NCBI GenBank assembly: GCA_002368155.1
Contig: AP018180.1
Span: forward strand, 7,372,561 to 7,436,560
Length of the DNA: 64,000 nt
Origin: Nostoc carneum NIES-2107
GTDB lineage: Bacteria > Cyanobacteriota > Cyanobacteriia > Cyanobacteriales > Nostocaceae
Direction: 5' to 3'
Part shown: positions 3,939 to 28,789 of the stretch, piece by piece
Numbering within the stretch: position 1 is the first letter of the stretch
Layout of the letters: every line of letters starts with the position of its first letter
Program-made: the position numbers and the translations under genes
Notes under the pieces: model-generated
The model's input: only the letters and a program-made list of their open reading frames with translations
Databases searched by the model: none
Told to the model about the DNA's origin: nothing

Positions 3939-4055
3939 AATCACAAACGACCTTAAATTATCCAGAAATTGTAGCAAAATCTAACCAAAGTTGGCTTCGC
4001 ACTTACCCTCTGTTTGGTAAAATAGCTGGGTCGTTTCATCTCATTTAGTCCATCT

Positions 4056-4559: not shown

Positions 4560-4810
4560 TGTGAGGCCGAGTTTCCGTGGGTGTAATTATCAAGAAAAGG
4601 AATTACTCATGGTTAATGGGTAATAGGTTCTATTGCCCATAACCTTAAATTAATGCTACTTATTGATTGGGTTGATGACAGACAACCGCCTGTTTCTGCT
4701 GTCGTTCAGGTGGCGATCGCAGAGGAAGGGTAAAGAAAGGGGTAGCAATTCCCCATTGACTCATCCCGAATATCTATCCCAAATTCAACATCTTAAACCC
4801 AACATTTTTT

Positions 4811-5302: not shown

Positions 5303-5307
5303 ATAGC

Positions 5308-5388
5308 GGTAGGGATTGGGGATTGGGGATTGGGGACAAGGTAAACAATAGAAAATTTGACCCTTGACCCTTGACCCTTGACCTCTTC
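5308..5388. repeat. Heptamer repeats (GGGGATT)n and (TTGACCC)n
   Basis: Two short arrays, GGGGATT about four copies and CCCTTGA about four copies, fill the gap between the convergent YajQ gene and the minus-strand gene that ends at 5389. Confidence 0.85.
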
Positions 5389-5853
5389 TTACAAAACCTT
5401 GTGTGTATGGGAATGCTGCTTAACGTTATCTTCTTTAGTAACTACTCTGGCAGCATTGAGTATCCGTTTGCGTTCGGTGGAATATTTCAAATCTGTGTAG
5501 GTTGTCCCCAAAGGAATCAGAGACTTGGCACTTTCACGACGCTTGTAAGTTCGAGATGCAGCAAATAAACGAGGTACAAATTCATCTCCAAATTGAGATG
5601 ATTCGGGGAAGCCTGTAGGTAATAAAAGTTGATCCCCGTTGAATACAGAACCTAAAGTTGTCGCATAAGCCAACTTGTATGATGTGGGAATACCTTTCAT
5701 CACTGCTTCCAACGCTGCAGAAGGAATAGGTTCAATCACTTCAATTTGATGAATTTCTCCATCTTCCTTGACAAAGCAGGTCGCCAAGCCGATAACAACA
5801 TAATCATCAGCCGTGAGATCCGGCGCGTCGTGATAAGAAATTGCAATTGTCAT
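5389..5853 (-). CDS. Conserved cyanobacterial protein of unknown function
   Basis: 154 residues, ATG at 5853. No family recognised. The sequence is protein-like throughout (YVVIGLATCFVKEDGEIHQIEVIEPIPSAALEA split over the first 50 residues, then a basic C-terminus with RTYKRRESAKSL and a His-rich end QHSHTH). No signal peptide or membrane segment. Convergent with YajQ. Codon use resembles the neighbours, so I regard it as a real gene. Confidence 0.7.
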   Translation of the reverse strand: MTIAISYHDAPDLTADDYVVIGLATCFVKEDGEIHQIEVIEPIPSAALEAVMKGIPTSYKLAYATTLGSVFNGDQLLLPTGFPESSQFGDEFVPRLFAASRTYKRRESAKSLIPLGTTYTDLKYSTERKRILNAARVVTKEDNVKQHSHTHKVL

Positions 5854-9617: not shown

Positions 9618-9897
9618 GTTCTGAGTTGCAGAGACGCGATTAATCGCGTCTGTACAAAATAAAAGTATTTATATTCTCATCTCCCTTCCCCAATCCCCAA
9701 TCCCCAATCCCCAATCCCCAATCCCCAATCCCCAACCCCCATTTCCATCAACTTCCGCTGAAGCTGTGAGAGTTGATCTAGCATAGGAAAAAGCCTGTTA
9801 AGATGGCATATTTGCCCATGTTATATTTGGGTAGATTTTTCAGAACACTCACTGAACAATCACTTTAGCAATCACTTCGCCAATGGTTTAGCAGCCG
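9618..9897. repeat. Dispersed palindrome plus (CCCCAAT)n repeat block
   Basis: 9632-9651 is a perfect 20-base palindrome, AGACGCGATTAATCGCGTCT, followed by GTACAAAA; a near-identical copy lies at 24766-24785 (one mismatch). 9687-9740 is a run of about seven CCCCAAT heptamers (complement of GGGGATT). The remainder is the thrS leader, with no recognisable regulatory RNA. Confidence 0.85.
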
Positions 9898-11727
9898 ATG
9901 TCGCCTAATCAAGTTCCTAACCAATCAGAACAACCTGCAAAAATGTACTTACCTCGTAGCAGCGAATCGGAAAACTTAAAAAAAATCCGTCACACTGCTT
10001 CCCATGTGATGGCTATGGCCGTACAAAAGCTGTTTCCTAAGGCGCAAGTAACAATTGGCCCCTGGATTGATAACGGTTTTTACTATGATTTTGACAATCC
10101 AGAACCATTCACTGATAAGGATTTAAAAGCCATCCAGAAAGAGATGGTAAAAATTATCAATCGCAAATTACCAGTAGTTCGCGAAGAAGTAAGCCGGGAA
10201 GAAGCTGAACGCCGGATTCAGGAAATTAAAGAACCATACAAGTTAGAAATTTTGGCAGATATTAAAGAAGAACCAATCACAATTTACCACTTGGGAAATG
10301 AATGGTGGGATTTGTGTGCGGGGCCGCATTTAGAAAATACCAGCGAAATTAACCCTAAAGCTATTGAATTAGAAAGCGTTGCGGGTGCTTATTGGCGTGG
10401 TGATGAAACCAAAGCCCAACTACAACGGATTTACGCTACTGCTTGGGAAAATCCCGAACAATTGGCTGAATATAAGCGGCGCAAAGAAGAAGCACAGCGT
10501 CGGGATCACCGCAAATTAGGTAAGGAACTGGGTTTATTTATATTTTCTGACCTTGTGGGGCCGGGTTTACCTTTGTGGACTCCCAAGGGAACTTTGCTGC
10601 GGAATCTGTTAGAAGACTTTTTGAAACAGGAACAGCTAAAACGGGGTTATTTACCTGTCGTCACGCCGCATATCGCCAAAGTAGATTTATTTAAAATCTC
10701 TGGACATTGGCAGAAGTATAAAGAAGATATGTTCCCCTTAATGGCGGAAGATGAAGCTGCTGCAGCTTTAGAAAATGGCTTTGTGATGAAGCCAATGAAT
10801 TGTCCTTTCCATATCCAAATCTATAAGAGTGAATTGCGTTCCTATCGGGAACTACCAATGCGCTTGGCAGAATTTGGTACTGTTTACCGCTACGAACAAT
10901 CAGGGGAATTAGGCGGTTTAACCAGAGTACGCGGCTTTACCGTGGATGATTCTCACCTGTTTGTCACCCCCGAACAGCTAGACAGCGAGTTTTTGAACGT
11001 CGTTGATTTGATTTTGTCGGTTTTCAATAAATTGCAACTGAAAAACTTCAAAGCCAGACTCAGTTTCCGCGATCCAGCCAGTGATAAATATATTGGTTCT
11101 GATGAAGCGTGGGAAAAATCTCAAGGTGCAATTCGCCGTGCTGTAGAACAGCTAGGAATGGAACATTTTGAGGGAATTGGAGAAGCAGCTTTCTATGGGC
11201 CTAAACTCGACTTTATCTTTAGTGATGCCCTAGAAAGAGAATGGCAATTAGGAACCGTACAAGTAGATTACAACTTACCAGAACGCTTTGAGTTAGAGTA
11301 CGTTGCTGAAGATGGTTCTCGCAAACGTCCGGTAATGATTCACCGTGCGCCCTTTGGTTCACTGGAACGGCTAATTGGGATTTTGATTGAAGAGTATGCG
11401 GGTGATTTCCCCTTGTGGTTAGCACCAGTGCAAGTGAGGTTACTACCAGTTGGGGAAGCACAAATTGATTTTACAAAAGAAGTCGTCGCGAAGATGCAAG
11501 CTTTGGGTATCCGTGCCGAAGTGGATCTGAGTGGCGATCGCTTGGGTAAATTAATCCGTAATGCTGAGAAAGAAAAAATACCCGTAATGGCAGTTGTGGG
11601 AGCCAAGGAAGTTGAAACCAACAGCTTGAGTATTCGTACTCGCGCTTCTGGGGAATTGGGTGCTATTGCAGTAGATGAGGTTTTAGATAAATTAAAAACT
11701 GCGATCGCTAACTTCGAGAACTTCTAG
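9898..11727 (+). CDS. thrS: Threonyl-tRNA synthetase
   Basis: 609 residues. Class II synthetase charging tRNA-Thr. The N-terminal TGS domain of the E. coli enzyme is missing: the protein opens almost directly on the editing domain (IRHTASHVMAMAV at about 31-43, CAGPH near 140). Catalytic core: motif 1 region near 270, MKPMNCPFHIQIYKSE with the zinc-binding Cys (about 300), motif 2 FGTVYRYEQSGELGGLTRVRGF (first 20 residues around 325-345) and motif 3 MIHRAPFGSLERLIG near 480; anticodon-binding domain to the end. Cyanobacteria often carry two thrS paralogs; which one this is cannot be told. A GC stem-loop follows at 11735-11759. Confidence 0.97.
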   Translation: MSPNQVPNQSEQPAKMYLPRSSESENLKKIRHTASHVMAMAVQKLFPKAQVTIGPWIDNGFYYDFDNPEPFTDKDLKAIQKEMVKIINRKLPVVREEVSREEAERRIQEIKEPYKLEILADIKEEPITIYHLGNEWWDLCAGPHLENTSEINPKAIELESVAGAYWRGDETKAQLQRIYATAWENPEQLAEYKRRKEEAQRRDHRKLGKELGLFIFSDLVGPGLPLWTPKGTLLRNLLEDFLKQEQLKRGYLPVVTPHIAKVDLFKISGHWQKYKEDMFPLMAEDEAAAALENGFVMKPMNCPFHIQIYKSELRSYRELPMRLAEFGTVYRYEQSGELGGLTRVRGFTVDDSHLFVTPEQLDSEFLNVVDLILSVFNKLQLKNFKARLSFRDPASDKYIGSDEAWEKSQGAIRRAVEQLGMEHFEGIGEAAFYGPKLDFIFSDALEREWQLGTVQVDYNLPERFELEYVAEDGSRKRPVMIHRAPFGSLERLIGILIEEYAGDFPLWLAPVQVRLLPVGEAQIDFTKEVVAKMQALGIRAEVDLSGDRLGKLIRNAEKEKIPVMAVVGAKEVETNSLSIRTRASGELGAIAVDEVLDKLKTAIANFENF

Positions 11728-11734
11728 CAATCAA

Positions 11735-11759
11735 GTTGGCTGGCTAATTACCAGCCAAC
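11735..11759 (+). terminator. Stem-loop after thrS
   Basis: GTTGGCTGG at 11735-11743 pairs with CCAGCCAAC at 11751-11759 (9-bp perfect stem, 7-base loop), eight bases after the thrS stop. No T-run follows, so it may be a weak terminator or 3' stabiliser. Confidence 0.6.
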
Positions 11760-11785
11760 AAACACAAGTAAAATAGAAAATTTAT

Positions 11786-11976
11786 ATGGCTCTCCGAGTT
11801 TGGATATGATAAATTAATACATAAAAAAGGCTGAAACCATTTATATGGTAAGGTTTCATACAGATAAAACAACAGATTTGATAAAAATAAAATTTGATTG
11901 TATTGAATCCCTTGCCATCTAAAGAATTGAAGTCGTATTAAGTATTAATTTTGTATAGCAAGTCTCGGAGAGCCAT
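11786..11976. mobile_element. MITE-like element, 191 bp, TTAT target duplication
   Basis: The ends ATGGCTCTCCGAG (11786-11798) and CTCGGAGAGCCAT (11964-11976) are perfect 13-bp inverted repeats, and the similarity continues inward imperfectly for about 45 bp (both contain ATTAATAC). TTAT flanks both sides (11782-11785 and 11977-11980), a plausible target duplication. The interior has a hairpin TGAAACC/GGTTTCA around 11832-11860 and no coding frame. Confidence 0.8.
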
Positions 11977-11982
11977 TTATAT

Positions 11983-12060
11983 TTACCTTGTAAATTAAGG
12001 TGAATTTGGTCAAGTTGAAATTGGTAATACATCGATAATCAAATTGATATACTACTAATC
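11983..12060 (-). pseudogene. Decayed fragment duplicating the 3' part of the downstream SGNH hydrolase gene
   Basis: 11983-12011 repeats 13115-13143 at 28 of 29 positions; the latter encodes the conserved DHIHLNLQGN region of the SGNH hydrolase on the minus strand. The following 50 bases still resemble the more upstream coding sequence (the LLPIFN region) but with gaps. Together the two copies flank the Rpn gene in direct orientation. Confidence 0.6.
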
Positions 12061-12065
12061 AACTC

Positions 12066-13055
12066 ATGACAGAGGAACGCGAAAGAGCCGATCAAGATAG
12101 CCCTTGGAAAGAAATTTTAGAAGCTTACTTTCCGCAAGCGATGCAATTTTTCTTTCCGCAAACAGCTGCATTAATTAACTGGGAACATCCCCATGAATTT
12201 TTAGATAAGGAATTTCAACAAATAGCGCGAGATGCCGAACAAGGAAGAAGATATGCAGATAAATTAGTCAAAGCTTGGCACATAGAAGGCGAAGAAATTT
12301 GGCTATTGATACATATAGAAATTCAGGCAAAACCAGAATCAAACTTTGCCGAACGAATGTTTTCATACAATCTGCGAATTTTTGACAGATTCGGCAAACC
12401 AGCAATTAGTCTGGCTATTTTGTGTGATTCGGACTCGACATGGCGACCAAACCAATATAGTTATAATTACCCTGATACCAAGCTGAACTTTGAATTTGGA
12501 ACAGTTAAGCTTTGGGATTACCAAACCCGTTGGGCAGAATTAGAAGCTAGCAATAATCCTTTTGCAACGGTGGTAATGGCACATTTAAAGACACAACAAA
12601 CAACTAAAAAACTCCAAGAACGCAAAACTTGGAAATTTAGTTTAATTCGACGATTGTATGAACAAGGTTGGCAAGAAAAAGATATTCGTAACCTTTATCG
12701 CTTCATTGACTGGGTTATGATTTTACCAAAATCATTAGAAGTAGAGTTTTGGGAAGAATTTAAACAATTTGAACAGGAGCGAACTATGAGCTACATTACC
12801 ACAGGTGAGCGTATAGGCTACGAGCGAGGAAGAGAAGAAGGTAAGCAAGAAGGTATACAAGAAGGTAAGCAAGAAGGTGAACAAATTCTGGTTCTCCGAC
12901 TACTACAAAAACGCTTTGGAGAGTTACCAGAACAACTTCGCTTACGCATCCAAACTCTTTCTCTCAATCAGTTGGAAGAACTTGCTGAGGCGTTGCTGGA
13001 TTTCACAGCCATTGAAGATTTGTTGAGCTGGTTAGACACTAATCAAGCACAGTAG
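12066..13055 (+). CDS. Rpn family PD-(D/E)XK nuclease / putative transposase with DUF4351 C-terminus
   Basis: 329 residues. N-terminal half is the Rpn (recombination-promoting nuclease) PD-(D/E)XK fold: DKLVKAWHIEGEEIWLLIHIEIQAK around residues 70-100 carries the D...ExQ catalytic pattern. Residues about 240-275 are a low-complexity tract of GxxEGxQEG repeats, and the end (LLQKRFGELPEQL, LNQLEELAEALLDF) is the DUF4351 helical tail. Family members are abundant in cyanobacteria and behave as mobile genes; E. coli Rpn proteins promote RecA-independent recombination. Its last 17 bases overlap the convergent SGNH hydrolase gene, and copies of that gene's tail lie on both sides. Confidence 0.85.
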   Translation: MTEERERADQDSPWKEILEAYFPQAMQFFFPQTAALINWEHPHEFLDKEFQQIARDAEQGRRYADKLVKAWHIEGEEIWLLIHIEIQAKPESNFAERMFSYNLRIFDRFGKPAISLAILCDSDSTWRPNQYSYNYPDTKLNFEFGTVKLWDYQTRWAELEASNNPFATVVMAHLKTQQTTKKLQERKTWKFSLIRRLYEQGWQEKDIRNLYRFIDWVMILPKSLEVEFWEEFKQFEQERTMSYITTGERIGYERGREEGKQEGIQEGKQEGEQILVLRLLQKRFGELPEQLRLRIQTLSLNQLEELAEALLDFTAIEDLLSWLDTNQAQ

Positions 13056-14168: not shown

Positions 14169-14711
14169 TCACCTAGTATTTACGCCTGTAACATTGCTAC
14201 GGAATCGTACCATTTCCTCACTTGCATTAAAATGTGATGCTATTTCCGTTTTTGTCATTTGACGCTGAACAGCCCAAAGTAAACCCCGCCGAGGAATCTG
14301 AAGACAACCACCTAAATAAGTTGCTTCATCTTCATCACTCTGTCGGCGCAGAGGAAGCCCGGTATTTGAATCAAAGCGGACAATTTTATGTCTTAATAAC
14401 AGGTGTCCAAACTCGTGCATCAGGTTCGATTCACGCCTTGCGGGTGTATGGCGTGGGTTGTTTACAATCCAGAGTGGGCTTTGATTAATAATCCCTGCTG
14501 ACCATTGGTCGCTATCGAGCAATACCTTTACTACGGAAGGATTTAAACTGGGAATCTTTTCAGGTGTCAAAATTTTTGCATTCAATTGAGCCGCCAGTAT
14601 ATCTGCTGGTAATGGGTCAAATGCCCGTAATTTCAATGAACTACGTTGCTCAGTGGCAATCCCTTCACACTTTTGCCTAAACGCAGTTGGTAATGTTTCT
14701 GTTAGTGCCAT
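14169..14711 (-). CDS. ImmA/IrrE-type zinc metallopeptidase
   Basis: 180 residues. HEFGH near residue 100 (LMHEFGHLLLRH) is the HExxH zinc site of the COG2856 family; the downstream acidic DEDEATYLGG supplies the third ligand region. ImmA-type peptidases cleave an XRE repressor to relieve repression of mobile or conflict genes (Bacillus ICEBs1, Deinococcus IrrE/DdrO). Here the gene starts 18 bases after the stop of a truncated regulator-like frame (14730-14876), the usual regulator-peptidase pair. With its partner truncated it may no longer have a substrate. Confidence 0.85.
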   Translation of the reverse strand: MALTETLPTAFRQKCEGIATEQRSSLKLRAFDPLPADILAAQLNAKILTPEKIPSLNPSVVKVLLDSDQWSAGIINQSPLWIVNNPRHTPARRESNLMHEFGHLLLRHKIVRFDSNTGLPLRRQSDEDEATYLGGCLQIPRRGLLWAVQRQMTKTEIASHFNASEEMVRFRSNVTGVNTR

Positions 14712-14729
14712 ATTCTTGTCATCTGGCTA

Positions 14730-14876
14730 TTAATCGTCGCTTTGTTGAGCATTATCCCGATACGCTGCTTTGACTAATTCTGCCAGTGCATTGGCTACTG
14801 CTGGATCAAGTTTTTTCGATGCTCGCAATTGAATTTCTATTGCTTCTAATGTATTTAAATCGGAAGGCGCTTTGCA
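14730..14876 (-). pseudogene. C-terminal remnant of a regulator (XRE-type) paired with the ImmA peptidase
   Basis: An open frame of 48 residues (APSDLNTLEAIEIQLRASKK, then LDPAVANALAELVKAAY) ends 18 bases upstream of the ImmA start. The text resembles the tail of XRE regulators that precede ImmA genes. An in-frame TAG (complement of 14877-14879) and loss of resemblance mark the break at about 14872, where the sequence switches to an unrelated plus-strand coding fragment. The helix-turn-helix part is gone. Confidence 0.55.
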
Positions 14877-15051
14877 CTACGACGAAAGTTTTTATGTTAT
14901 TCCTCACCATCGTCTGCATCAACGCCAAGATTACATTGATATCTTGCGTGAAGAAGCAACAGGATTGCCAATAAGCACCCATCTTTTCAGCGATACAGCT
15001 TTTGAAGAACGAGTCAGCACCAAGATAATGCACCTGAGTAAAGGGAAATAG
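14872..15051 (+). pseudogene. 3' remnant of the first gene of the pPIWI_RE island (probably the REase/pPIWI_RE_Y gene)
   Basis: A frame of 59 residues (LHYDESFYVIPHHRLHQRQD, YIDILREEATGLPISTH, FSDTAFEERVSTKIMHL) ends with TAG at 15049-15051, only four bases before the helicase ATG, as expected for the upstream gene of the same operon. No start codon with a ribosome site and no N-terminal domain remain; the frame is lost at the junction with the regulator remnant. Position and the known three-gene organisation suggest the restriction-endonuclease-like component; the fragment itself is too short to prove it. Confidence 0.55.
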
Positions 15052-15055
15052 CATT

Positions 15056-18000
15056 ATGAGTCAAATGACATTATTTGAGCCACCTGTTATTTTTACAAAA
15101 CGTATCAAAGAATTGGAAGATAACTCTGAGCTAAATCGAGAGCAAGCCAAATTATTACTTCAGGTAGAACTTGGCTTCGCTTTGATGGAGTGTTTAGGAC
15201 TCGATGATGAACCAGTCACAGCAGTTTGGGCAATACTCAGTGGTATGCCTTTGCGACATCCAAGGTTACAAAACTTAGATGAAAGTCAGAAGCGTGCAGT
15301 TGCTAACGCTCGGCAAATTATCCCATTTTCTGCACGTTTCGCCTGGTTGAACGCATTACGTTCTTATATACGCAATATTCCACGAAATTCGCGTAATTAT
15401 GATTTTGGTATCCAAGATTTAGATTCTCAGATTATTCATGCGGCGAAAGGTCTGCGCCATCAAGTCCACCAAAATTTATATGAAAGCTGTCTGAGTGCCG
15501 ATTTGAAGTTTCGCCAACGCAGGGCTGAACCAGTAAAGGCTGGAGTTCCCTACCAATTCCAGGCGAAGACGGAAAAAGAAACAGTCACGATGCAAGTACA
15601 GTTCACACCAGAACATTTAAGTACGGCAAGACAACAACCTTGGTTTCCCACACCACGCGATCGCAACCCTTTTTCAGTGCAAATTTCAGATTTAGAGTCA
15701 GATGCAGAGTTCCTAGATCGCCGGGAACAGTTATTAGCACGCCGATATGGTTGGCATGAAACACAAAAAGGACATTGGGTAAGCCGCTTTCGCAAAATCA
15801 ACTTTCACAAAATTCAGGAAGACGGGACGGTGAGCGATCGCAATACAGAACCACTAGATTTAGATGGTTTTGTACATATTGCGGGACAGGTGGCTTCTGG
15901 GAAGTCTACCCTGTCAACTTTGCAGGCCGTTAATGTTGTGCGACATCATCCTGATCGCCGCATCACCTTGGTTGTCAGTGACGTACAATCAGCAATTCGG
16001 TTAGCAAATCAAATTAATTGGTGGTTCTGTGACGATCCAGAAAACGATGAGCCAGTTGCAGTACCGTTATTAGGACGCACTAAACGAGACGCGCACCTGA
16101 AAAGCTTCTATGCCTCAAAAGACTTTCAGGAACACTGGGAACGCGGACAACTACACTGGGGTGATCGCTTTTTGGGAACTGCTTGTCCTTTGCAAGGACT
16201 CCTACAAGCTAGCGACATCTTCGACCGTTTACATGGTAAGCCACTCATACCTGGAACTGAGCCATGTCACGCTTTGAAAGAAGCACCAGAAAGCGAAAGC
16301 AAGCGTAAAAAACAAAACAATAACCCTGGTGTCTCTCACTTGTGTCCGTTTTTTGCTACTTGCCCATCACAGCAAGTCTATCGTGATATGCCAAATGCCC
16401 GTGTTTGGATTACAACTGCAGGCGCAATGGCAATGGCTGGTTTACCACGTCATCTAGAATTGCGTCCCATCAAGATAGGAGAACTCGTTTATCTACATTC
16501 CGATATTGTTGTGTTTGATGAAGTAGACACAGTTATTAAGTGGTTTGATGACGTATATGCTGAAGAAGTTTTACTGACTAATGGTGGTGTTTTTGATGAC
16601 ATTGGGGTACAAACTGAAGATTACATGAGATTCAACCGTGTCACCCCACCATTGATGCAGCGATGGACAACCGCAGAACGTCATGTACAAAGTGTAGTTA
16701 CAGCAACTTTAACCCTATTAGATAAACGTTTAGGACACGAGTTTTTACGTAAATGGATAGAACGTGGCTATTTTACACCTAATTCTCTCCTGTATAAATT
16801 TTCTCGTCGCCTAGCTGGACTTGAAGAATTAGATCATCCTGATGTCACTGAGCAAGAAATTAAAGCTAATAATCGACGCGTACAGCAAATAATGCGATAT
16901 TTTGACGCATTACTTGATGATGACCCTTTACTTGGGCAAACTCGACCAAATTCTAAAGTTCAGAGACTAGCACTGTTGATTCAACAGATTAATAGTATTG
17001 GCGAAAGTGCTACCGACGATAGTATTTATAGTGCTTGCAAAGCCTGGATAGTTGATTTTTTCCCCAAAACAGGAAAAAGGTTAGCAAAACTGCGAGAAGA
17101 ACTAGAAAAGCGTCAAAACAACTCACAGCAGACAGCCAAGAAAAAACGGCGAAAGTCCTCAAAACAGGAGGAAGAATCAGATCCGGTAGATACCCTCGAA
17201 ACCCTAACTTATCGTTTACAGTTTGCCCTGACCATCACCCTTTTAGATCGGCACACACGCATTGTTTTTTATGAATGGCATCATCGACCACCCACTTTAG
17301 ATGACGAGCCACCACATCGTCGGATGCCAACAGCAATGTTAAATATTTTACCCTTACCACCAACAGGAAGGCAGTTTGGTACTTATTATTCCTGCAAGGA
17401 TGACAATCATAACCAATCTGAGAATAGCAGCGAAAATGCTTTATCTATATTTGCCTATACCAACATTGGTCGTTACTATGTTTTGAACTTTCATCGCTTG
17501 CTGACAGACTTGGATGGTCAACGCGGCCCCAACGTATTAGCATTATCAGGAACATCTTATCTAAGAGATTCCACTCAGTTTCATGTGGGCAATCCCCAGG
17601 GTATTTTAATGCCAGAGGCGAGTGCAACAGAAGCGATGGCTGCGCCAACGTCTTTGACGAACGCTCAAAGTCGCTTCAAGTTTCTACCCCAATCGAACCA
17701 CAAAGATGAACCTATCCGTATTTCTGGGACACCAGAACGCCAAAAAATGGGAATGTTTAAAGAGATGGCACAAGCATTAGTTGGTAACAACGGTAGTGGC
17801 GATTTAGGACAGGAACTTGAGGAATTGAAACAGCTTGGCCAGAGCAATCCAGATTTTTGGCAGGATAGGGAACGCATACTATTACTCGTCAACTCCTACG
17901 ATCAGGCGCGATGGGTAGCAGAGGAAATCCGTCAATGTTGGTGGGGTATGCGCGAGCAAGTCTACCATTTGCAGCGCGATCGCACAGAAACATTCACTGA

Positions 18001-18700
18001 GGATGACATGAACTATCTCTCAAGGATGGAAGTTGGTGCCCTCAATCGTGCTGACATCGAAACTTTCGCACTAACTGGCGGTAAAATCCTGGCTGCACCG
18101 ATCAGTGCTATGGGGCGCGGATTCAACATTTTGAATGCCAATGGTAAAGCGGCTTTCGGTGCGGTTTACTTTCTCACCCGTCCCTATCCTCATCCTCATG
18201 ATACTCAAGCGATCGCTCAAGAAATCAACCGTCGTGCTTTGGATTGGGTAGAAGATGCGAATTTCGTGGCTTGGGAAAAAGACGGCATTTTAGGGCGTGC
18301 GGAAGCTGTGCGCCAATTAGCTGCACGTTACTGGCGATCGGTAGAACATCGTTCTTACTACAAAACACTGTATAAAAATGAAGAATTACGCGCCTTTCCA
18401 CGCCAAGACTTAGCTGCAACTACGGCTGGCGTAATCGTTCAAGCTGTCGGTCGTCTTTTGCGCGGAGGTGTTCCCTTTCACGCTTACTTTGTTGATGCTG
18501 CTTGGGGGCCCAACTATACCAAAGAACAACAGCCTGATACACCCCGTACCAGCTTACTAGCCGCAATCATTGATTTGCTTTGTGATTATGTTGAAGAAGA
18601 CTCGATAAGTAAAGCTTTATACCAATCAATAGCAGATGCTTTGGTTGATATTGATGGCTTCAACTGGGAAATAGATCCAAGAGATAAAGAGAGAGTATGA
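15056..18700 (+). CDS. pPIWI_RE island helicase (DinG/XPD-like, pPIWI_RE_Z type)
   Basis: 1214 residues, intact. Superfamily-2 helicase signatures: Walker A GQVASGKSTL (about 277-286), DEVD box VVFDEVDTV (about 486-494), and motif VI QAVGRLLRGG (about 1129). Between Walker A and B are four cysteines at about 379, 403, 430 and 436 (ACPLQG, EPCHA, HLCPFFATCPS), positioned like the Fe-S cluster of XPD/DinG. The first 240 residues have no helicase motif and fit the Z domain described for three-gene pPIWI_RE islands. ATGA overlap with the next gene shows translational coupling. In such islands the helicase is thought to unwind DNA or RNA-DNA hybrids for the PIWI protein. A Lys-rich, low-complexity insert lies near residue 695. 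Confidence 0.85.
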   Translation: MSQMTLFEPPVIFTKRIKELEDNSELNREQAKLLLQVELGFALMECLGLDDEPVTAVWAILSGMPLRHPRLQNLDESQKRAVANARQIIPFSARFAWLNALRSYIRNIPRNSRNYDFGIQDLDSQIIHAAKGLRHQVHQNLYESCLSADLKFRQRRAEPVKAGVPYQFQAKTEKETVTMQVQFTPEHLSTARQQPWFPTPRDRNPFSVQISDLESDAEFLDRREQLLARRYGWHETQKGHWVSRFRKINFHKIQEDGTVSDRNTEPLDLDGFVHIAGQVASGKSTLSTLQAVNVVRHHPDRRITLVVSDVQSAIRLANQINWWFCDDPENDEPVAVPLLGRTKRDAHLKSFYASKDFQEHWERGQLHWGDRFLGTACPLQGLLQASDIFDRLHGKPLIPGTEPCHALKEAPESESKRKKQNNNPGVSHLCPFFATCPSQQVYRDMPNARVWITTAGAMAMAGLPRHLELRPIKIGELVYLHSDIVVFDEVDTVIKWFDDVYAEEVLLTNGGVFDDIGVQTEDYMRFNRVTPPLMQRWTTAERHVQSVVTATLTLLDKRLGHEFLRKWIERGYFTPNSLLYKFSRRLAGLEELDHPDVTEQEIKANNRRVQQIMRYFDALLDDDPLLGQTRPNSKVQRLALLIQQINSIGESATDDSIYSACKAWIVDFFPKTGKRLAKLREELEKRQNNSQQTAKKKRRKSSKQEEESDPVDTLETLTYRLQFALTITLLDRHTRIVFYEWHHRPPTLDDEPPHRRMPTAMLNILPLPPTGRQFGTYYSCKDDNHNQSENSSENALSIFAYTNIGRYYVLNFHRLLTDLDGQRGPNVLALSGTSYLRDSTQFHVGNPQGILMPEASATEAMAAPTSLTNAQSRFKFLPQSNHKDEPIRISGTPERQKMGMFKEMAQALVGNNGSGDLGQELEELKQLGQSNPDFWQDRERILLLVNSYDQARWVAEEIRQCWWGMREQVYHLQRDRTETFTEDDMNYLSRMEVGALNRADIETFALTGGKILAAPISAMGRGFNILNANGKAAFGAVYFLTRPYPHPHDTQAIAQEINRRALDWVEDANFVAWEKDGILGRAEAVRQLAARYWRSVEHRSYYKTLYKNEELRAFPRQDLAATTAGVIVQAVGRLLRGGVPFHAYFVDAAWGPNYTKEQQPDTPRTSLLAAIIDLLCDYVEEDSISKALYQSIADALVDIDGFNWEIDPRDKERV

Positions 18701-21129
18701 CTAGTAAAACTAAACCAGCAAATATTTTGCTACCTGCACGCATGAGTTTGGTAACAAATGCCTTTGCCAAGCTAGAGATTGCTGTGTTGTTATTTCCTTT
18801 TGTTCAGGTGGTAGCAGACTTTCGCCGTGATATGGAACGAGTACTCTCTCGTGGTAATAAAAAAATAGAGGTTCCGCCACCATATCGACAGTTAAATAAT
18901 GCTCTACTTGCCTGTGCATCTACACTGACATACGGCTTTGAGTATGTTGGTTATGATCAGGAAAGTAACTCTTCCTTATATCAAGCATTAGCTGTAGGAA
19001 CTCCAGAGAACCCATTGAAAACCCCTACACCCCAGCAAATACATGAATTAGTGAGAATTTGGGCGCAGGAGTGGACGAAGAAATATCGTGACAAAGGTAA
19101 ACCGGATGAAGTGAATAGCGTGTGCGATCGCTTTCTTGAAAGAATAGCTATCATACCACCTGATTGGGATTGGCAACCTATTAAACCGGAAATACTGGTG
19201 CGCGATATTAACGCAGAGAGAGGATTGGGATTTCAAGCTATTCCCAGTCTTCTCGCAACCATGTTGCATGGTAAAAAGTGCATTATTAACTCTAGAAAAA
19301 GACAACAGGAAATTCAATGGCGCAAAGTACAGGGAAGTGGTTCGGGTAAGGTTGGACTGTACCTAGTTAGTAAGCCGTTTAAGGCCAATTATACAGATAA
19401 TAGCAAGGAAAGAGAAGGTTATTTTGCTTACCGTCTAGACTTTAATGTTGAAACCCAAGCAGGACGGTTCAATAATAATGGCAATCTAGAACCGTGGATT
19501 TTCTTACATTTGAGTTGTCAAAGATATCCTCATGAACCACTTTTAGAAGCTAACTATGGACGTGATATCTCTGTTCTTATGGGTATGAATAAGGCACGTT
19601 TATCTGATTATGAGGTGGATTCAACGTTAGTACGTCTTGTTATTGAGAACAATGCCAAAGAAGAAGAAAATTTGTGGAGATTACAACTACCCGAACTACT
19701 TGCTGCATTCAAAGCACGCGCTCTAGAACTGCCAGATAATATTCTGAATAATCCCGCAGGATTTGGTAATTTAGATAACTCAAATAGCTGGGGTGACAGA
19801 GATGAATACTATATAGTTCATGCTGAAGGCTATAAGTATGAGCATGAGCAACATAAACGAGGACATAGTATAAAAACAGGCTTTAGTTTTTTGGAACGGG
19901 GCGATATTATTGCACGAGTATTAGAACTACTCAACGGCGTTTTAATACCAGATAATCCGATGCAATCTGACATTCCTGCACCATCTGGTATTAAAGCACC
20001 ACTAGCAATGCGGGATTATGAATTTATTTCTAAAACGCGCAAAAAACGCCAACCTTATCAGCAAATTGCTACTGATGCTATTTACCGAGCATTGCAAGGT
20101 AAGCCAATGCACATCTTTATAATTTATCGGGAACAAGACACTTATGAGACTGTTTACCAGCAATTACGCGATGTATTTCTTCTCAATGAAAATGAAGATT
20201 TTCCACAAGATATAACAGTTTCAAAAATTTTGATTGATGATGCGACGCTTTTGCAGCCACTTAATACAGGTGGATTGTTGCCTAAAGATCGTAAGAAATT
20301 CGATGATCAAATATGTAAGCAGCATCAAGCAAAGCGAGAAGCATGGCGAATTTTTCTCCAAAAAAACGCTATTCTACAGATAAATTTTGAGACTAATCCC
20401 CACTGTTTAGCGATTATCGAAATTAGCCGCATCAAAACAAAGGGAGTTCTTCCGCAACAAAATATCAAAGGAGCTATTCGTGAAGCTTGTGTCAGAGAGG
20501 GAATTAGCTCCCAAATGATACAGACAGTTACAGCAAAATCAAGTGACACAGAAGACGATGAAGACAAATCGCCAGCCTACAGCAAAGCCACAAAAGGAAG
20601 AGTGATGAATGCTGTACTGGATGGAACATTACGTCAAATTGGGGCACTATACGGGCTACCTTCTCAACTCTATGAACAAGCAAATATACCCAAAGAAATT
20701 GCCCAAGAACTAGATGTAATTGCCTTTTGTCGTCGCAAAACTAACCAATATCAAGGTGATATTCACTATGTGCTTGCGGTTCGTTTGCGTGCAACGGGTG
20801 CGGTAGATGTAATGCTTCCTGATAGTGATGATTGGATTCCTTACTCACAGGCGGGGATCACTGTCGGAAAGATTTTTGCTGAAGCACGCCGCGATCGCTA
20901 TGAAAATACAAAACGCATTCAAAGTAAAATCAAGTTGAGCGGCACAGAATTAGTACAGTTTGTTGCGCGGGTAGTAACCAAACATTTAGACAGGCCAAGC
21001 ATTGTTTTAGTTGAAGCCGAAGGGTGGCGTAACGAACGTGGTGAAGATAATGATGGCTCAGTCTGGTTTCAGTTGAAAAATGAGTACCTGCTGGCAAAAC
21101 GCAACGTTCCTTATATCTTGCACCTGTAA
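18697..21129 (+). pseudogene. pPIWI_RE protein (prokaryotic PIWI, MID-like X + RNase H-fold domains), N-terminal 804 residues, interrupted by IS
   Basis: The native frame runs from ATG 18697 to 21109, where the IS begins; the apparent stop at 21127-21129 is inside the IS end and adds six foreign residues. Removing the IS and one GTTC copy joins this frame exactly to 22502-23037 for a 982-residue protein. N-terminal about 400 residues fit the pPIWI_RE_X (MID-like) region, then an RNase H-fold PIWI domain from about 480 (HIFIIYREQ, LAIIEISRIKTKG, DVIAFCRRK, IVLVEAEGWRN). The family is named after conserved Arg and Glu residues in the PIWI fold and is predicted to act in defence against invading nucleic acid, possibly via RNA-DNA hybrids. 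As it stands the gene lacks its C-terminus and is probably inactive. Confidence 0.85.
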
Positions 21130-22497
21130 ACTTGGATGTCAATTCCATGACTAAGTGCCAAGTTTCTCAGGCGTTCAATATCTTGTAAAAGAAATAACAC
21201 CAATAATTGTGGAAAGATAGTTTGAAATGCAATTTCTGCGGCTTGTCCCCAATTTGGTAAACTTGTGGATGTTTTCGTTGTAGATAAGTAAGCCCAATGG
21301 GCCAATATGTAGGAAATCAAAGACAGTATCAACCAACGGTAAACGCCTAAAAGTGTTCCTTGCCCAAAGCGGTGTAAGCCGAAACGATGCTTGGCAGTCT
21401 TAAACCAGCCCTCTATTTGCCAACGGCGTTTACCCCACCAAGAAATAGTACTGGCTTTAAGAGCTTTGGTGGAAACGACAAATCGTTTTTCATACTTGCC
21501 ATCATCACGTTTAAAATAATACCAAGATACATAAACAGGAAACTTTAACCCTTTGAGGTGCAGGTGTTGTCCGCGTTTATATAGTTGAGAAACGCTGTAT
21601 CCCGAAGTTAATTTCCGCTTTTTTGCGATACCAGCAATGACGTGATACTTAAGTTTTCTCACACCATGTAGAAATTCCACACTGCCGAATGCAGTATCTA
21701 CAAGAATCATCACCTGAAAGCGCTGGGTTAATTTTTGAGGTAAACATTTGACCAACTTTAAAGCCAACTGTGCAGGCGATGAAGTGCCTTTCCCCCTCCA
21801 GACACGGAAACTCCAAGGGACTCGCCACTGACCGACAACTAAATACACGACAACTAAATGCAAGCCTCGTTTTCCGTTGTAGACGCGGATTAAGTCCTGA
21901 AATTGTGGAAATTTGCCGCATTTCTCTAAAGTTGTCAGGTCAATAATCACTTGTAGACAAGGTTTGCGTCCTTTTGGACAGTGAGACAAAATCTCCTCAA
22001 TGATACGATTGCGAGCAGTGCGAATTACACTACGGGTTGACCAATCATAAATATTGAGAAATCGGCTTAAAGCACTAGCAGACTTACTTTTAGAATGTTC
22101 TGGTAAAGGTTGGCCTTGTGCTTCTAAGAACAATCCCAACATTGCTTCTAAATTTTGTTGCTGATATCTAGAAGGCATTAACGACAACAGAGTGTAAACT
22201 AGCCCTTGGGCGTGGGCAAGAATTGAAATCATTTTTCTTGCTTTTCTATATGCTTTTAACGCCCTTTTTTCTCATACTTCTACCCTTGTGTGCAAATCGA
22301 ACTTCTGTTTCAAGTTAGTGTTCGTCAAAGACGTTGGCGCAGCTATCGCCTGTTTCCTGGTAATTTACGTAATTTAAACAATCATTTTAGTTAACAATAT
22401 TACTTACTTTACTTGAATGGATTCTCGTTTATGAAGTAACTTTTTTACACTTCTATTTGCGTATTAGTGGTTTATCCCGACAGGTGCAAGATATAAG
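21110..22497 (-). mobile_element. Insertion sequence, 1388 bp, IS4/IS701-like, inside the pPIWI_RE gene
   Basis: Ends are perfect 17-bp inverted repeats, CTTATATCTTGCACCTG at 21110-21126 and its complement at 22481-22497 (18 bp if the next base pair is counted). The flanks carry a GTTC duplication (21106-21109 and 22498-22501). Excision of IS plus one GTTC restores the host frame KRNV-LDFRHV. One transposase gene occupies most of the element and its stop codon lies in the inverted repeat. Confidence 0.95.
21111..22232 (-). CDS. IS4/IS701-superfamily DDE transposase
   Basis: 373 residues, ATG at 22232. DDE residues visible: first Asp in QVIIDLTTLEKCGKF (about 107), second in MILVDTAFGSVEF (about 178), Glu in RRWQIEGWFKTAKHRFG (about 288), the last matching the Y/W-x-E-x5-K signature of IS4-like transposases. 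The N-terminal 90 residues are helical and basic. The gene is full length with no frameshift, so the element may still be active. Transcribed opposite to the host gene. Confidence 0.93.
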   Translation of the reverse strand: MISILAHAQGLVYTLLSLMPSRYQQQNLEAMLGLFLEAQGQPLPEHSKSKSASALSRFLNIYDWSTRSVIRTARNRIIEEILSHCPKGRKPCLQVIIDLTTLEKCGKFPQFQDLIRVYNGKRGLHLVVVYLVVGQWRVPWSFRVWRGKGTSSPAQLALKLVKCLPQKLTQRFQVMILVDTAFGSVEFLHGVRKLKYHVIAGIAKKRKLTSGYSVSQLYKRGQHLHLKGLKFPVYVSWYYFKRDDGKYEKRFVVSTKALKASTISWWGKRRWQIEGWFKTAKHRFGLHRFGQGTLLGVYRWLILSLISYILAHWAYLSTTKTSTSLPNWGQAAEIAFQTIFPQLLVLFLLQDIERLRNLALSHGIDIQVYRCKI

Positions 22498-22501
22498 GTT
22501 C

Positions 22502-23037
22502 TAGACTTTCGCCATGTTCCTGGTCATAATTGCGAGTACAGCCGTGAGAGTAACCAACTAGAAAACTTGCTAGCAGTAATTCGGATTCGCACTAGTCAAG
22601 AAACACCACAGTACATTACCAATCGAGAAACTTGGAACAAAGATTGCCCAGCACGAGATTTTCAACATTTGAGCAGTTTTTACGATAACTCAGTACCAGA
22701 ACTACTGCATTACTTTTCTGTGGGAAAACTCCCAAAAACACAGAAGGCGCAAGATGAAAAGCCAATACCCGAACTTTATAAACTCGGTTATCAAGAGGAT
22801 AAATTCGGTGCTAACTTTCCATTCAAACATCAACAGCTAGTGGAAATTGTACCGTTCTTTGTACGCCCAGATTTTCAACCAGAAGAAGCTTTAAAAGCAC
22901 TATGTCGTGTTCCTCACTATTTAAGATGCTCACCATCTTGGTCTATGGGAAATATCGTTTCGCCATACCCAATGCACTTAGGCCAGGAAGTCATAGAGGA
23001 TCACTTATGCATACTTGGTGTAAATTTGCCAATTTAA
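22502..23037 (+). pseudogene. pPIWI_RE protein, C-terminal 178 residues beyond the IS
   Basis: Continues the interrupted PIWI frame: LDFRHVPGHNCEYSRESNQL, IRIRTSQETPQYITNRETW, then VEIVPFFVRPDFQPEEAL and the tail SPSWSMGNIVSPYPMHLGQE-VIEDHL. The RIRT...ETPQYIT stretch and the PYPMHL tail are what I recall as hallmarks of the end of pPIWI_RE proteins, so it likely contributes active-site residues of the RNase H fold. The first in-frame start inside the fragment (TTG at 22567) has no clear ribosome site. Ends 28 bases before an IS630 element. Confidence 0.85.
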
Positions 23038-23065: not shown

Positions 23066-24186
23066 GCAATCCTAAATCATTTGTGAAAAATCACAGTTGT
23101 TGATATGGTGAACATTAGAAGTCATTGATAGGGTGCATGGCAGCACAAATGGAAGAGTTGATAGAGTTCATTCAGGCTACCTCAGACTCCAGAGAACTAA
23201 AACGGGCACTGGCAGTACAAATGGTGATGCAAAACTATAAACATTCAAAGATTGGAAATATTCTCGGAGTGTCTGTTGGTTTTGTAAACAAATGGAAATA
23301 TATATTTATAGAACAGGGTATAACCGGATTGAGGCTAAAATACAAAGGGTCAAAAAGTTATCTTGACTCTGCACAAAGACAAGTAGTATTAAACTGGCTT
23401 CAACAGAAAAACTATTGGCATTTATCAGAATTAAAGGAGTACGTAGAAGATAATTTTGATGTTGTATTTGAGTCAAATCAAAGCTATTACGATCTCTTTA
23501 AAGACGCTAATATAAGTTGGAAAAAAACACAAAAAAAGAATCCTAAAAAAGACGCAGAACTAGTAGCTAAAAAAAAACTAGAAATAACCGCATGGCTGAC
23601 GGCACATGAGCGTGAGATAGTATCTGGGGAACTCATAGTTTTTTTTGAAGATGAATGTCACCTATTATGGGGAGATATTTGTGGTTATATTTGGGGAAAT
23701 ACGAAAGAACGGATTGAAGTTCCAGTGATCAATGAACGACAAAGACAAACCTATTTTGGCGCTCTAAATTATTACACACAAGAGTTTCTAATTAAGCCTT
23801 GTAAAAAAGGTGATTCTAGCAACGCGATTGCTTTTGTACAATATTTAATTTCCCAGTATCCAAAAAGCCGTATTGCTTTAATTTGGGATGGAGCTAGTTA
23901 TCATCGTTCTGCTGAATTTAAAGCTTACTTAGATAATCTGAATCAAGGATTAAGTGAAGATGAATGGAAAGTTACTTGTATGAGATTTGCACCCAATGAC
24001 CCAACGCAAAATCCTGTAGAAGACATCTGGTTGTACGCTAAAAAATTTATTCGAGAGTTTTACCACTTATGTAAATCCTTTTCTCAGGTCAAGAGATTAT
24101 TTGAACTCGTTACTAATCATCAAGTTTTTAATTTTCCCAAAATATTTATGTATGGTTCATTTTTTTCACAACTCATTTAGGATTGC
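23066..24186 (+). mobile_element. IS630-family insertion sequence, 1121 bp, TA target duplication
   Basis: Terminal inverted repeats GCAATCCTAAATCATTTGTG at 23066-23085 and, as complement, GCAATCCTAAATGAGTTGTG at 24167-24186 (17 of 20 match), flanked on both sides by TA (23064-23065, 24187-24188) as expected for IS630/Tc1. Sits between the broken pPIWI_RE gene and the hydrogenase accessory genes. Confidence 0.92.
23137..24180 (+). CDS. IS630-family transposase
   Basis: 347 residues from ATG 23137 (a TTG 12 bases upstream and a second ATG at 23149 are alternatives). N-terminal helix-turn-helix (RALAVQMVMQNYKHSKIGNI, VSVGFVNKWK), then the DDE domain: FEDECHLLWGD (about 170), ALIWDGASYHRS (about 250) and NDPTQNPVEDIW (about 290), the D, D and E of IS630/Tc1 transposases. 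Single intact frame, unlike many cyanobacterial IS630 copies that need frameshifting. Confidence 0.93.
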   Translation: MAAQMEELIEFIQATSDSRELKRALAVQMVMQNYKHSKIGNILGVSVGFVNKWKYIFIEQGITGLRLKYKGSKSYLDSAQRQVVLNWLQQKNYWHLSELKEYVEDNFDVVFESNQSYYDLFKDANISWKKTQKKNPKKDAELVAKKKLEITAWLTAHEREIVSGELIVFFEDECHLLWGDICGYIWGNTKERIEVPVINERQRQTYFGALNYYTQEFLIKPCKKGDSSNAIAFVQYLISQYPKSRIALIWDGASYHRSAEFKAYLDNLNQGLSEDEWKVTCMRFAPNDPTQNPVEDIWLYAKKFIREFYHLCKSFSQVKRLFELVTNHQVFNFPKIFMYGSFFSQLI

Positions 24187-26094: not shown

Positions 26095-27057
26095 ATGACT
26101 AACGTATTATGGCTACAAGGTGGAGCTTGTTCTGGTAACACCATGTCTTTTTTAAATGCCGAAGATCCTACAGTTTGTGATTTAATTTCCGACTTCGGTA
26201 TTAACGTCCTGTGGCATCCTTCTTTGGGCATCGAACTTGGTAATAATCTGCAACAACTATTGCGGGATTGTATTTCTGGAAAAACTACTCTAGATATTTT
26301 GGTATTTGAAGGGACTGTAGTTAACGCCCCTAATGGTACAGGTGAATGGAATCGCTTTGCTGACCGACCGATGAAAGATTGGTTAGCAGACTTATCGAAA
26401 GTAGCATCATTTGTCGTCGCTGTAGGAGACTGCGCTACTTGGGGAGGAATCCCCGCCATGTCACCCAACCCCAGCCAATCCCAAGGCTTACAATTCCTCA
26501 AGCGTAAAGAAGGCGGCTTTTTAGGCAAAGACTACCGCGCCAAATCTGGCTTACCAGTGATTAATATTCCTGGATGTCCAGCCCATCCAGATTGGATAAC
26601 TCAAATTTTAGTTGCGATCGCCACCGGACGCATAGCTGATATAACACTTGACGAACTCAACCGTCCGCAAACCTTCTTCAAGAGTTTTACTCAAACTGGC
26701 TGTACTCGCAACGTTCACTTTACTTTCAAAGCTGGGACAACCGAATTTGGTCAACGCAATGGCTGTCTCTTCTATGATTTAGGTTGTCGCGGCCCCATGA
26801 CTCATTCATCCTGCAACCGCATCCTCTGGAATCGCGTTTCCTCCAAAACTCGTGCTGGAATGCCTTGTATAGGCTGCACCGAACCGGAATTTCCTTTCTA
26901 TAACCTCCAACCAGGAACAGTATTTAAGACTCAAACCCTCATGGGAGTTCCGAAACAACTACCCCCAGGACTCAAAGCTAAAGACTACGCTTTATTGACA
27001 ATGATTGCCAAAGATATGGCTCCCAGTTGGACAGAAGAGGATATGTTTACGGTTTAG
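26095..27057 (+). CDS. hupS: Uptake [NiFe]-hydrogenase small subunit
   Basis: 320 residues, exactly the cyanobacterial HupS length, without the Tat signal peptide of proteobacterial HupS. Cysteines for the proximal cluster (LQGGACSGN at 8-16, VGDCATWGG near 108, NIPGCPAHP near 160) and medial/distal clusters (LGCRGPMTHSSCN, GMPCIGCTEPEFPF) are present. HupS relays electrons from HupL to the membrane chain; in heterocysts it recovers electrons from H2 made by nitrogenase. Separated from hupL by 136 bp of complementary heptamer repeats. Confidence 0.97.
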   Translation: MTNVLWLQGGACSGNTMSFLNAEDPTVCDLISDFGINVLWHPSLGIELGNNLQQLLRDCISGKTTLDILVFEGTVVNAPNGTGEWNRFADRPMKDWLADLSKVASFVVAVGDCATWGGIPAMSPNPSQSQGLQFLKRKEGGFLGKDYRAKSGLPVINIPGCPAHPDWITQILVAIATGRIADITLDELNRPQTFFKSFTQTGCTRNVHFTFKAGTTEFGQRNGCLFYDLGCRGPMTHSSCNRILWNRVSSKTRAGMPCIGCTEPEFPFYNLQPGTVFKTQTLMGVPKQLPPGLKAKDYALLTMIAKDMAPSWTEEDMFTV

Positions 27058-27059
27058 TG

Positions 27060-27178
27060 GTTAGGGACTGGGGACTAGGGATTGGGGACTGGGAAGCAAG
27101 AAATTTTAAGATTCCAGTACCTAATACCCAACACTTCAAACCTAATCCCCAGTCCCCGATACCCAATCCCCAATCACC
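27060..27178. repeat. hupS-hupL intergenic heptamer hairpin
   Basis: GGGGACT/GGGGATT heptamers at 27063-27092 are complementary to CCTAATCCCCAGTCCCC-type heptamers at 27137-27172, so the transcript can fold into a long hairpin between hupS and hupL. A similar STRR hairpin between hupS and hupL is known in other Nostoc strains and may stabilise or attenuate the mRNA. Confidence 0.85.
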
Positions 27179-27193
27179 ACGAAGGACAGCAGA

Positions 27194-28789
27194 ATGAGTA
27201 TTCAAACATTAGATATTTCACCAGTTGGTAGAGTTGAAGGCGATTTAGATGTGCGGGTGGAAATTGCTGACGGACAAGTAGTTAACGCCTGGACACAAGC
27301 TGAACTATTTCGCGGATTTGAAGTGATCCTGAAAGGCAAAGACCCGCAAGCAGGATTAATTGTGACACCACGTATCTGTGGTATTTGCGGTGCTTCTCAC
27401 CTTTCTTGTGCATCTTGGGCATTAGATACAGCCTGGCAAACAGAAGTACCACGCAACGCCATCTTAGCCAGGAATCTTGGCCAAATTGTTGAAACGATAC
27501 AAAGTATTCCTCGGTACTTTTATGGTTTATATGCCATTGACCTTACTAATAAAAAGTACCAAAACAGCCCATTTTATGAAGAAGCAGTGAGACGCTTTGC
27601 GGCTTTTACAGGCAAATCATACGAAATTGGGGTGACTATTTCCGGTAAACCTGTACAAATTTACGCCCTTTTGGGTGGACAATGGCCCCATTCTAGCTAC
27701 ATGGTTCCTGGTGGTGTGATGTGCGCCCCTACCCTCACAGACGTAACTCGCGCTTGGTCAATTCTGGAATATTTCCGAACAAATTGGATTGAACCAGTGT
27801 GGTTAGGTTCTTCTATGGAACGCTATGAAGAAATCAAAACCTATGATGACTTCATGGCTTGGTTAGATGAAAGCCCCAATCACGCCAATTCTGACTTAGG
27901 TTTTTACTGGCGCATGGGTTTGGATATTGGTCTAGATAAATATGGTGCTGGTGTAGGTAAATATATTTCCTGGGGATATTTACCCCATGAAGACAAATAT
28001 CAAAAGCCAACTATCGAAGGACGCAATGCAGCCTTAATCATGAAAAGCGGTGTGTATGACAGCTTTAGCGATACTCACAGCTTGATGGAACATACCTTTG
28101 CACGTGAAAATACTGAGCATTCTTGGTATGACGAAGGTACAGCCAGCGTTCACCCCTTCGATCGCACAACTCAACCTACTCAAAATAATACCAAAGACTT
28201 TGACCACGCCTATTCCTGGTCAACTGCTGTCAGTCACATAAATTACGGACGCTTAGAAGCTGGCCCCTTTGCTAGACAAATGGTTGCAGGTGGAAAACAT
28301 GGCGAGTCTTGGCAACACTACGATGGCTTTATCCTCAGTATGTTTAAAGCTATGGGTGGTGCAAGTCTGCATCTGCGCCAATTAGCACGAATGCACGAAT
28401 TGATTAAACTCTACCATCAAGCTGAACGTTGCTTGCGTGAGTTCCGCTTAAACGACCCCTGGTATATCAAACCCAAAGAACAAGATGGGCGTGGCTGGGG
28501 TGCAACGGAAGCGGCGCGTGGTGCTTTGTGCCATTGGGTTGAGTTAGAAGGTGGCAAGATTAAGAACTATCAAGTCGTTGCCCCCACGACTTGGAATGTC
28601 GGCCCCCGCGATGGTGAAGGTATCCGCGGCCCAATTGAGGAAGCGTTAATTGGTACGCCGATTTATGACGCAACTGACCCCGTAGAAGTTGGGCACGTCG
28701 CCCGTTCCTTTGATTCCTGTTTAGTTTGTACAGTCCATGCCCATGATGCGAAAACAGGTAAAGAGTTAGCCCGCTTCCGCACCGCTTAG
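27194..28789 (+). CDS. hupL: Uptake [NiFe]-hydrogenase large subunit
   Basis: 531 residues with AAGGA 9 bases before the ATG. Both NiFe-binding pairs are present: RICGICGASH near residue 60 (L1) and DSCLVCTVHAHD near 510 (L2), with the C-terminal extension that a HupW-type protease removes after the His. N-terminal PVGRVEGDLDVRV is typical. The gene is continuous; it does not carry the XisC-excised hupL element found in Anabaena PCC 7120, so no developmental rearrangement is needed for expression. Confidence 0.97.
   Translation: MSIQTLDISPVGRVEGDLDVRVEIADGQVVNAWTQAELFRGFEVILKGKDPQAGLIVTPRICGICGASHLSCASWALDTAWQTEVPRNAILARNLGQIVETIQSIPRYFYGLYAIDLTNKKYQNSPFYEEAVRRFAAFTGKSYEIGVTISGKPVQIYALLGGQWPHSSYMVPGGVMCAPTLTDVTRAWSILEYFRTNWIEPVWLGSSMERYEEIKTYDDFMAWLDESPNHANSDLGFYWRMGLDIGLDKYGAGVGKYISWGYLPHEDKYQKPTIEGRNAALIMKSGVYDSFSDTHSLMEHTFARENTEHSWYDEGTASVHPFDRTTQPTQNNTKDFDHAYSWSTAVSHINYGRLEAGPFARQMVAGGKHGESWQHYDGFILSMFKAMGGASLHLRQLARMHELIKLYHQAERCLREFRLNDPWYIKPKEQDGRGWGATEAARGALCHWVELEGGKIKNYQVVAPTTWNVGPRDGEGIRGPIEEALIGTPIYDATDPVEVGHVARSFDSCLVCTVHAHDAKTGKELARFRTA

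Follow-up and report, generated by a model that had tools for sequence, protein, structure and literature searches.

How a pPIWI_RE island is switched on, and how one is lost, are questions raised by a 64,000-nucleotide stretch of Nostoc carneum NIES-2107 (the window; G000:C1:7372561-7436560), which lies inside the 8.35-Mb contig of a 9.36-Mb genome in 4 contigs. Positions 14733–23037 of the window are a disabled remnant of a pPIWI_RE three-gene island, composed of restriction endonuclease (REase), DinG-type helicase and PIWI genes, and intact relatives suggest switching on by a repressor/protease pair of the DNA-damage-sensing kind. A first-pass annotation had proposed such an island, disabled at least twice, and this was borne out by Pfam matches, one deletion and one insertion. 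The intact locus used for comparison, L033, is a contig of Nostoc sp. 106C, as judged from its identity with L109. The features are as follows (E, expect value).

14169–14711, minus strand: M78 (IrrE/ImmA/CapP-like) protease gene, open; Peptidase_M78 E 2.1e-17; HEFGH at residue 99
14733–14872, minus strand: 3' remnant of the XRE repressor gene, codons ~74–120 of 120, helix-turn-helix (HTH) part gone; located by tblastn with the L033 XRE
14863–14872: deletion junction, where both BLAST arms against L033 overlap
14863–15051, plus strand: 3' remnant of the pPIWI_RE REase gene, codons ~322–383 of 383, D...DxK stretch gone; PF18154 E 1.1e-8
15056–18700, plus strand: DinG-type helicase with pPIWI_RE_Z domain, intact, 1214 residues
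18697–21109, plus strand: 5' part of the pPIWI_RE gene, with X, MID and the beginning of the RNase H domain
21106–21109: target duplication GTTC, left copy
21110–22497, minus strand: insertion sequence of 1388 bp; DDE_Tnp_1 transposase at 21111–22232 (minus); 18-bp perfect terminal inverted repeats
22498–22501: target duplication GTTC, right copy
22502–23037, plus strand: 3' part of the pPIWI_RE gene, with the remaining RNase H domain; family R and E codons at 22582 and 22843

Each gene piece was searched separately against Pfam, and the pieces matched the families that the annotation had named. The 59-residue open reading frame (ORF) at 14872–15051 matched pPIWI_RE_REase (profile positions 64–113 of 117, E 1.1e-8), the helicase matched pPIWI_RE_Z (PF18155, E 9.8e-33), the 810-residue ORF at 18697–21129 matched pPIWI_RE_X, MID_pPIWI_RE and positions 7–106 of RNaseH_pPIWI_RE, and the 156-residue ORF at 22567–23037 matched positions 140–287 of the last profile (E 4.7e-12); the X, MID and RNase H domains are all present, spread over two pieces. 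The PADLOC model PprDinG spans helicase residues 43–1201 (E 6.5e-124). The genes lie on one strand in the order REase, DinG helicase and pPIWI_RE, with a 4-bp gap between the stop codon of the REase remnant and the helicase ATG and an ATGA overlap joining the helicase and PIWI genes, both as annotated. The helicase is intact, with the iron–sulfur-like cysteine set that had been ascribed to it: C377, C404, C430 and C436 are invariant across five aligned helicases. In the 3' piece of PIWI, the VIRIR (R) and LVEIV (E) motifs align by eye with 13 and 11, respectively, of 14 proteins from other helicase clusters. The Y domain and catalytic core of the REase are missing from the window, where the final 59–62 codons remain; the gene is complete in L033. 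Because the REase is reduced to these codons, the window copy is a remnant of a pPIWI_RE system and not a working member. In domains, gene order, tight spacing, helicase iron–sulfur cysteines and the PIWI R and E it agrees with the Burroughs et al. 2013 triad (PMC3702460), but the window copy is broken in two genes, and its relatives add a divergent XRE–M78 pair.

The window aligns with L033 over 14178–14872 and 14863–21109 at 92–93% identity (BLAST), and ~1.33 kb that L033 carries between the two arms is missing. The missing part comprises most of XRE, the intergenic region and approximately the first 321 REase codons, including the D...DxK stretch (codons 285–301), which we take to be the catalytic core. 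A single deletion truncated both XRE and REase, taking the region between them. A repeat-mediated deletion was considered because of the 10-base overlap of the arms at the junction, yet this 10-mer has no exact copy in relatives, and no repeat is claimed.

As the annotation had stated, PIWI is broken as well as REase. The insertion sequence that splits it is flanked on either side by GTTC, at a point where three relatives have an uninterrupted gene and a single GTTC, and the insertion is recent, since contig C3 carries an identical copy of all 1388 bp (G000:C3:169120-170507). Insertion sequences commonly cause misassembly, and one could take both lesions for assembly errors; this is very improbable, given the small number of contigs and the length of the one holding the window, the exact ends and 4-bp duplication of the insertion, and a deletion junction that is one clean change between two well-aligned arms. 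The helicase carries an 8-residue in-frame insertion (~17626–17665) that is missing in four relatives and whose DNA matches a short stretch within the region of the insertion sequence, as though the gene had received a small dispersed repeat. Just 3' of the PIWI gene lies an IS630-like element (23125–24180), which has 17 near-identical full-length copies in the genome, including this one.

Relatives of the island were collected with the helicase. PF18155 matched 33 of 148 related genomes and 14 of 386 phylum-wide genomes, own genome included, and a contig scan with two helicase-alignment patterns gave 21 loci, all titled cyanobacteria. The window's helicase cluster, termed class A, has 26 non-redundant members. 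XRE and M78 genes stand divergently upstream in all 21 class-A loci with a readable REase start, over 50–95% identity. Among the other five, both genes are present in L119; L114 carries XRE and, at its contig end, part of M78; L107 and L108 stop short of the regulator stretch; and M78 and the XRE remnant are what the window retains. The unit in relatives consists of five genes, divergent XRE and M78 and then the operon REase–DinG helicase–pPIWI_RE, which refines the annotated three-gene island, whose three genes are as described. Control by an XRE/ImmA pair, also proposed there, holds insofar as both genes adjoin the island; the XRE itself was truncated by the REase deletion.

In L033 the two regulators match HTH_3 (E 2.8e-8) and Peptidase_M78 (E 6.7e-16), and the window M78 is 88–92% identical to that of four relatives. 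A protease-alignment search of the 148 genomes returned 21 rows, 14 at ≤4.9e-51, six at 1.2e-24 to 5.6e-20 and one further fragment of the G007 relic. All 14 strong matches adjoin an island or its remains; four of them are same-genus copies beside a gene taken by eye for psbB, of which L141 and L142 are broken, L146 is a relic and L143 is cut by the contig end. XRE–M78 pairs are found beside other genes too, such as a ubiquitin-like operon in L148, and the pair could be a chance neighbour, for example one left by a mobile element; its presence in 21/21 class-A loci across 50–95% identity, and of an island or its remains beside every strong protease match, makes this barely credible. The L148 operon (8508–12263; the one such locus scanned) comprises multiubiquitin, E2, ThiF-JAB and DUF6527 genes in cyanobacteria, and similar frames were seen in L147, L149, L150 and L151. 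An AIPR gene (L034 3062–4735; PF10592 E 1.2e-39, PADLOC AbiU 3e-34) adjoins M78 in L034, L035 and L036; it is split into several frames in L035 and absent from the window.

We consider it likely that the window holds the disabled copy of a five-gene unit in which XRE represses, M78 cleaves XRE on a signal of damage or infection, and the triad then restricts. In intact relatives XRE probably binds to repeated GTTTC/GAAAC half-sites, which are enriched around the shared XRE–REase promoter region, and holds the operon low; the M78 protease, once activated, would cleave XRE and release the operon, the activator most likely being something that DNA damage or infection generates, such as single-stranded DNA. 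The pPIWI_RE protein would then bind a guide/target hybrid, the DinG helicase open it and the REase cut, as in the model of Burroughs et al. 2013. In the window, the deletion took the promoter region together with the 5' parts of both XRE and REase, and the recent insertion split PIWI. We infer this mechanism throughout, from repression and cleavage to the damage signal and restriction.

CapH and CapP regulate CBASS, Pycsar, BREX, DISARM and Bub operons (PMC13373217). The class-A pair shares with them an XRE and an M78 gene beside an operon promoter, the protease fold and HExxH, whereas pPIWI_RE operons are not among the known targets in the available part of that paper. The predicted model of the class-A protease has the M78 protease fold with HExxH and matches the fold of CapP and PprI. 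Since the protein ends after ~181 residues, without a part equivalent to CapP beyond residue 183, we would describe it, by analogy, as CapP-like in action and not as CapP itself. Compared with IrrE/PprI–DdrO of Deinococcus, sequence identity is 17–18% in structural alignment; the Deinococcus pair controls DNA repair genes (PMC8072749), whereas the class-A pair stands beside one defence-like operon. Several observations weigh against the proposed control. The class-A protease scores weakly with PADLOC capP (E 0.003 for the window, 0.0057 for L033), and its ~180 residues cover residues 6–183 of the 278 of CapP; the class-A XRE had no match to the PADLOC capH model at the limits used, and its structure model is of low confidence (pLDDT 72.5), with DdrO as best match (E 0.013). 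Searching PDB sequences with the protease profile returned integrin matches alone (E 0.061), taken as noise.

The pair might instead answer another signal, such as zinc, redox or a phage protein, or act as a toxin-antitoxin pair, with no DNA-damage switch. Zinc and redox are reported to activate IrrE of Deinococcus (PMC7907104), a toxin-antitoxin role has been ascribed to one XRE/metalloprotease pair (PMC10538038), and the signal is not readable from sequence; the fixed place of the pair before REase, the half-sites of the shared region and the resemblance in fold to CapP, which is activated by single-stranded DNA, and PprI lead us to regard this alternative as rather unlikely.

Class-A PIWI has no aspartate in the first RNase H strand, as likewise the 14 other-cluster proteins aligned, as read, and it has glutamate at a second site, where several of those proteins have aspartate. 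Because of these two positions, we expect class-A PIWI to bind the hybrid without cutting, the REase being the cutter. PsPIWI-RE, which is not among the 14 aligned proteins, is an RNA-guided single-stranded DNA nuclease needing D525 and D610, and a knockout of this member is ciprofloxacin-sensitive (PMC10991935); the annotation's description of the family as predicted and little tested must be amended, as this member has been characterized both biochemically and by knockout.

The helicase bears on whether the remnant is dead. The ratio of nonsynonymous to synonymous substitution rates (dN/dS, approximate, from a parsimony count with two outgroups) was 0.137 on the window branch and 0.12 on the L033 branch for the helicase, and 0.163 versus 0.086 for the 5' part of PIWI. 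With small counts, relaxed selection was not shown for either gene (Fisher p 0.85 and 0.19, respectively), and the helicase still looks constrained. The window helicase is both intact and constrained, hence loss of function is not proven. The remnant could be alive if a reduced function preserved the helicase, perhaps along with the large PIWI fragment, and a new promoter drove expression; the 1214 open codons of the helicase and its similar dN/dS on the two branches would allow this. This is improbable: the promoter region and REase are gone and PIWI is split, constraint may have had no time to fade after so recent an insertion, and no other class-A locus was seen keeping the helicase alone. 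We infer that the window copy is without function.

Decay is frequent in class A. Among the 24 loci with a contig covering all five genes (eight partial loci were dropped), the three main genes are open over ≥93% of the reference in 13 and not in 11, a set that includes draft and metagenome assemblies, in which some frame breaks may be errors. Loss of REase first was considered and rejected: in the 11 broken loci, breaks occur in REase in 6, the helicase in 9 and PIWI in 8 (L146 counted for all three), and no gene is clearly lost first.

The regulator comparison took in 72 non-redundant islands, which fall into 14 helicase clusters at 40% identity; a readable REase start is present in 63 of the islands. 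Plasmid searches covered 22–24 records each, and 13 regions were fetched. The N-terminal extension of REase is bimodal, ≤30 or ≥41 residues. Profiles were derived from the regulators found up to then and miss other kinds; for unfused REases without a profile match, upstream ORFs were read by eye, and regulator labels were assigned by hand. A separate divergent regulator was present in 27 of 34 islands without the extension, namely 21 class-A loci, L046 (PADLOC capH 1.8e-13, capP 2.1e-34), L068, in which XRE and M78 are fused in one protein, and four alphaproteobacterial plasmid islands (L126, L128, L132 and L133) with a WYL gene divergent before REase (Pfam, above cut-off). Regulators of the CapW/BrxR kind are WYL proteins; the plasmid WYL genes matched general PADLOC WYL models alone, in the two scanned, and the window has no such gene. 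In three of these four islands, the frame annotated as PIWI extends past the fetched region, to as much as ~10 kb. By profile search, the pair or a WYL gene was found in 0 of 29 islands with the extension; L060, one of the islands with an extended REase, has an M78-like ORF (E 5.3e-6) of 371 residues with an XRE-like start beside a small ORF (3949–5392), perhaps a toxin-antitoxin pair. Counted by locus, the contrast between unextended and extended islands gives Fisher p 1e-11, the loci not being independent, and by cluster the counts are 4/9 versus 0/6 (p 0.10). The five cluster-mates of L046 carry a 41–47-residue extension, which in L047, the single one scanned, is MerR-like (MerR E 3.2e-6, slightly short of the cut-off), and L046 looks like a regulator swap within its cluster. 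HTH domains fused to REase were described by Burroughs et al. 2013 (PMC3702460), and the LexA-like reading of a second extension type draws on that paper and a sub-threshold match (E 0.041). In L048 (G077:C245, minus strand), a 1718-residue frame begins as helicase and continues past the expected PIWI start, by fusion or deletion.

These patterns raise the possibility, which we put forward tentatively, that pPIWI_RE triads as a group are DNA-damage-inducible operons under exchangeable regulators at the operon head (an HTH fused to REase, an XRE and M78 pair of class-A, CapH/CapP or fused XRE–M78 form, or a WYL repressor), acting after damage or infection and not as a constant guard. The lineage-level p of 0.10 weighs against it, as do the 7 of 34 unextended islands without a regulator found (L044, L055, L061, L124, L131, L134 and L140), which count against the proposed control as well. 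XRE or ImmA is absent from the main text of PMC3702460 by text search, and that 2013 paper alone joins PIWI-RE with cyanobacteria and defense in the literature searched. The name pPIWI-RE occurs in one paper of this literature. CapP, CapH and PIWI were not found together in it, and PIWI-RE is absent from the eight papers listed as naming three or more of PIWI-RE, WYL, XRE, ImmA and LexA; most subscription papers and preprints fall outside this literature, so that the regulator link may be known elsewhere. New here are the proposed dedicated XRE–M78 control in the window's lineage and a wider, putative pattern of damage-type regulators before pPIWI_RE operons.

The host has not lost pPIWI_RE wholly. 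A second genome match to PF18155, at C1:6903318, belongs to a distant island with all three frames open (REase 506, helicase 1141 and PIWI 1051 residues), whose helicase is ~23% identical to that of the window. Around the remnant, the left neighbour gene is present in 8/8 same-genus genomes (own included), as is a NifU-domain homologue, close (≥94%) in three besides own. A clean empty site was not found; alignment of the compared loci holds over the left flank and is not continued by the right flank. The window helicase had no match among 50,697 phage records. Two intact frames at 26095–28789 resemble, by eye, hupS and hupL (small and large uptake hydrogenase subunits). Carriage as Tn7-like cargo was considered, as the island follows glmS in L033, L034 and L035, but no transposition gene was recognized there by eye, and this reading is not supported. 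In the host itself, the glmS site is occupied by a Tn7-like element with Cas6 (L082 4352–13612, G000:C1), in which TnsA, AAA/TniB, TniQ and Cas6 match above Pfam cut-offs, TnsB- and Cas7-like frames match below them and one frame is without a match; the element resembles a CRISPR-associated transposon.

The window is an example of the loss of a pPIWI_RE island while the host keeps a second one. That several separate clusters have damage-type regulators in the same position before REase bears on how pPIWI_RE is switched on. If the proposed control is true, mitomycin C or phage infection would induce the operon, a protease mutant would not respond, and damage-type control would offer a regulatory reason for ciprofloxacin sensitivity, the one knockout phenotype found in the literature searched.
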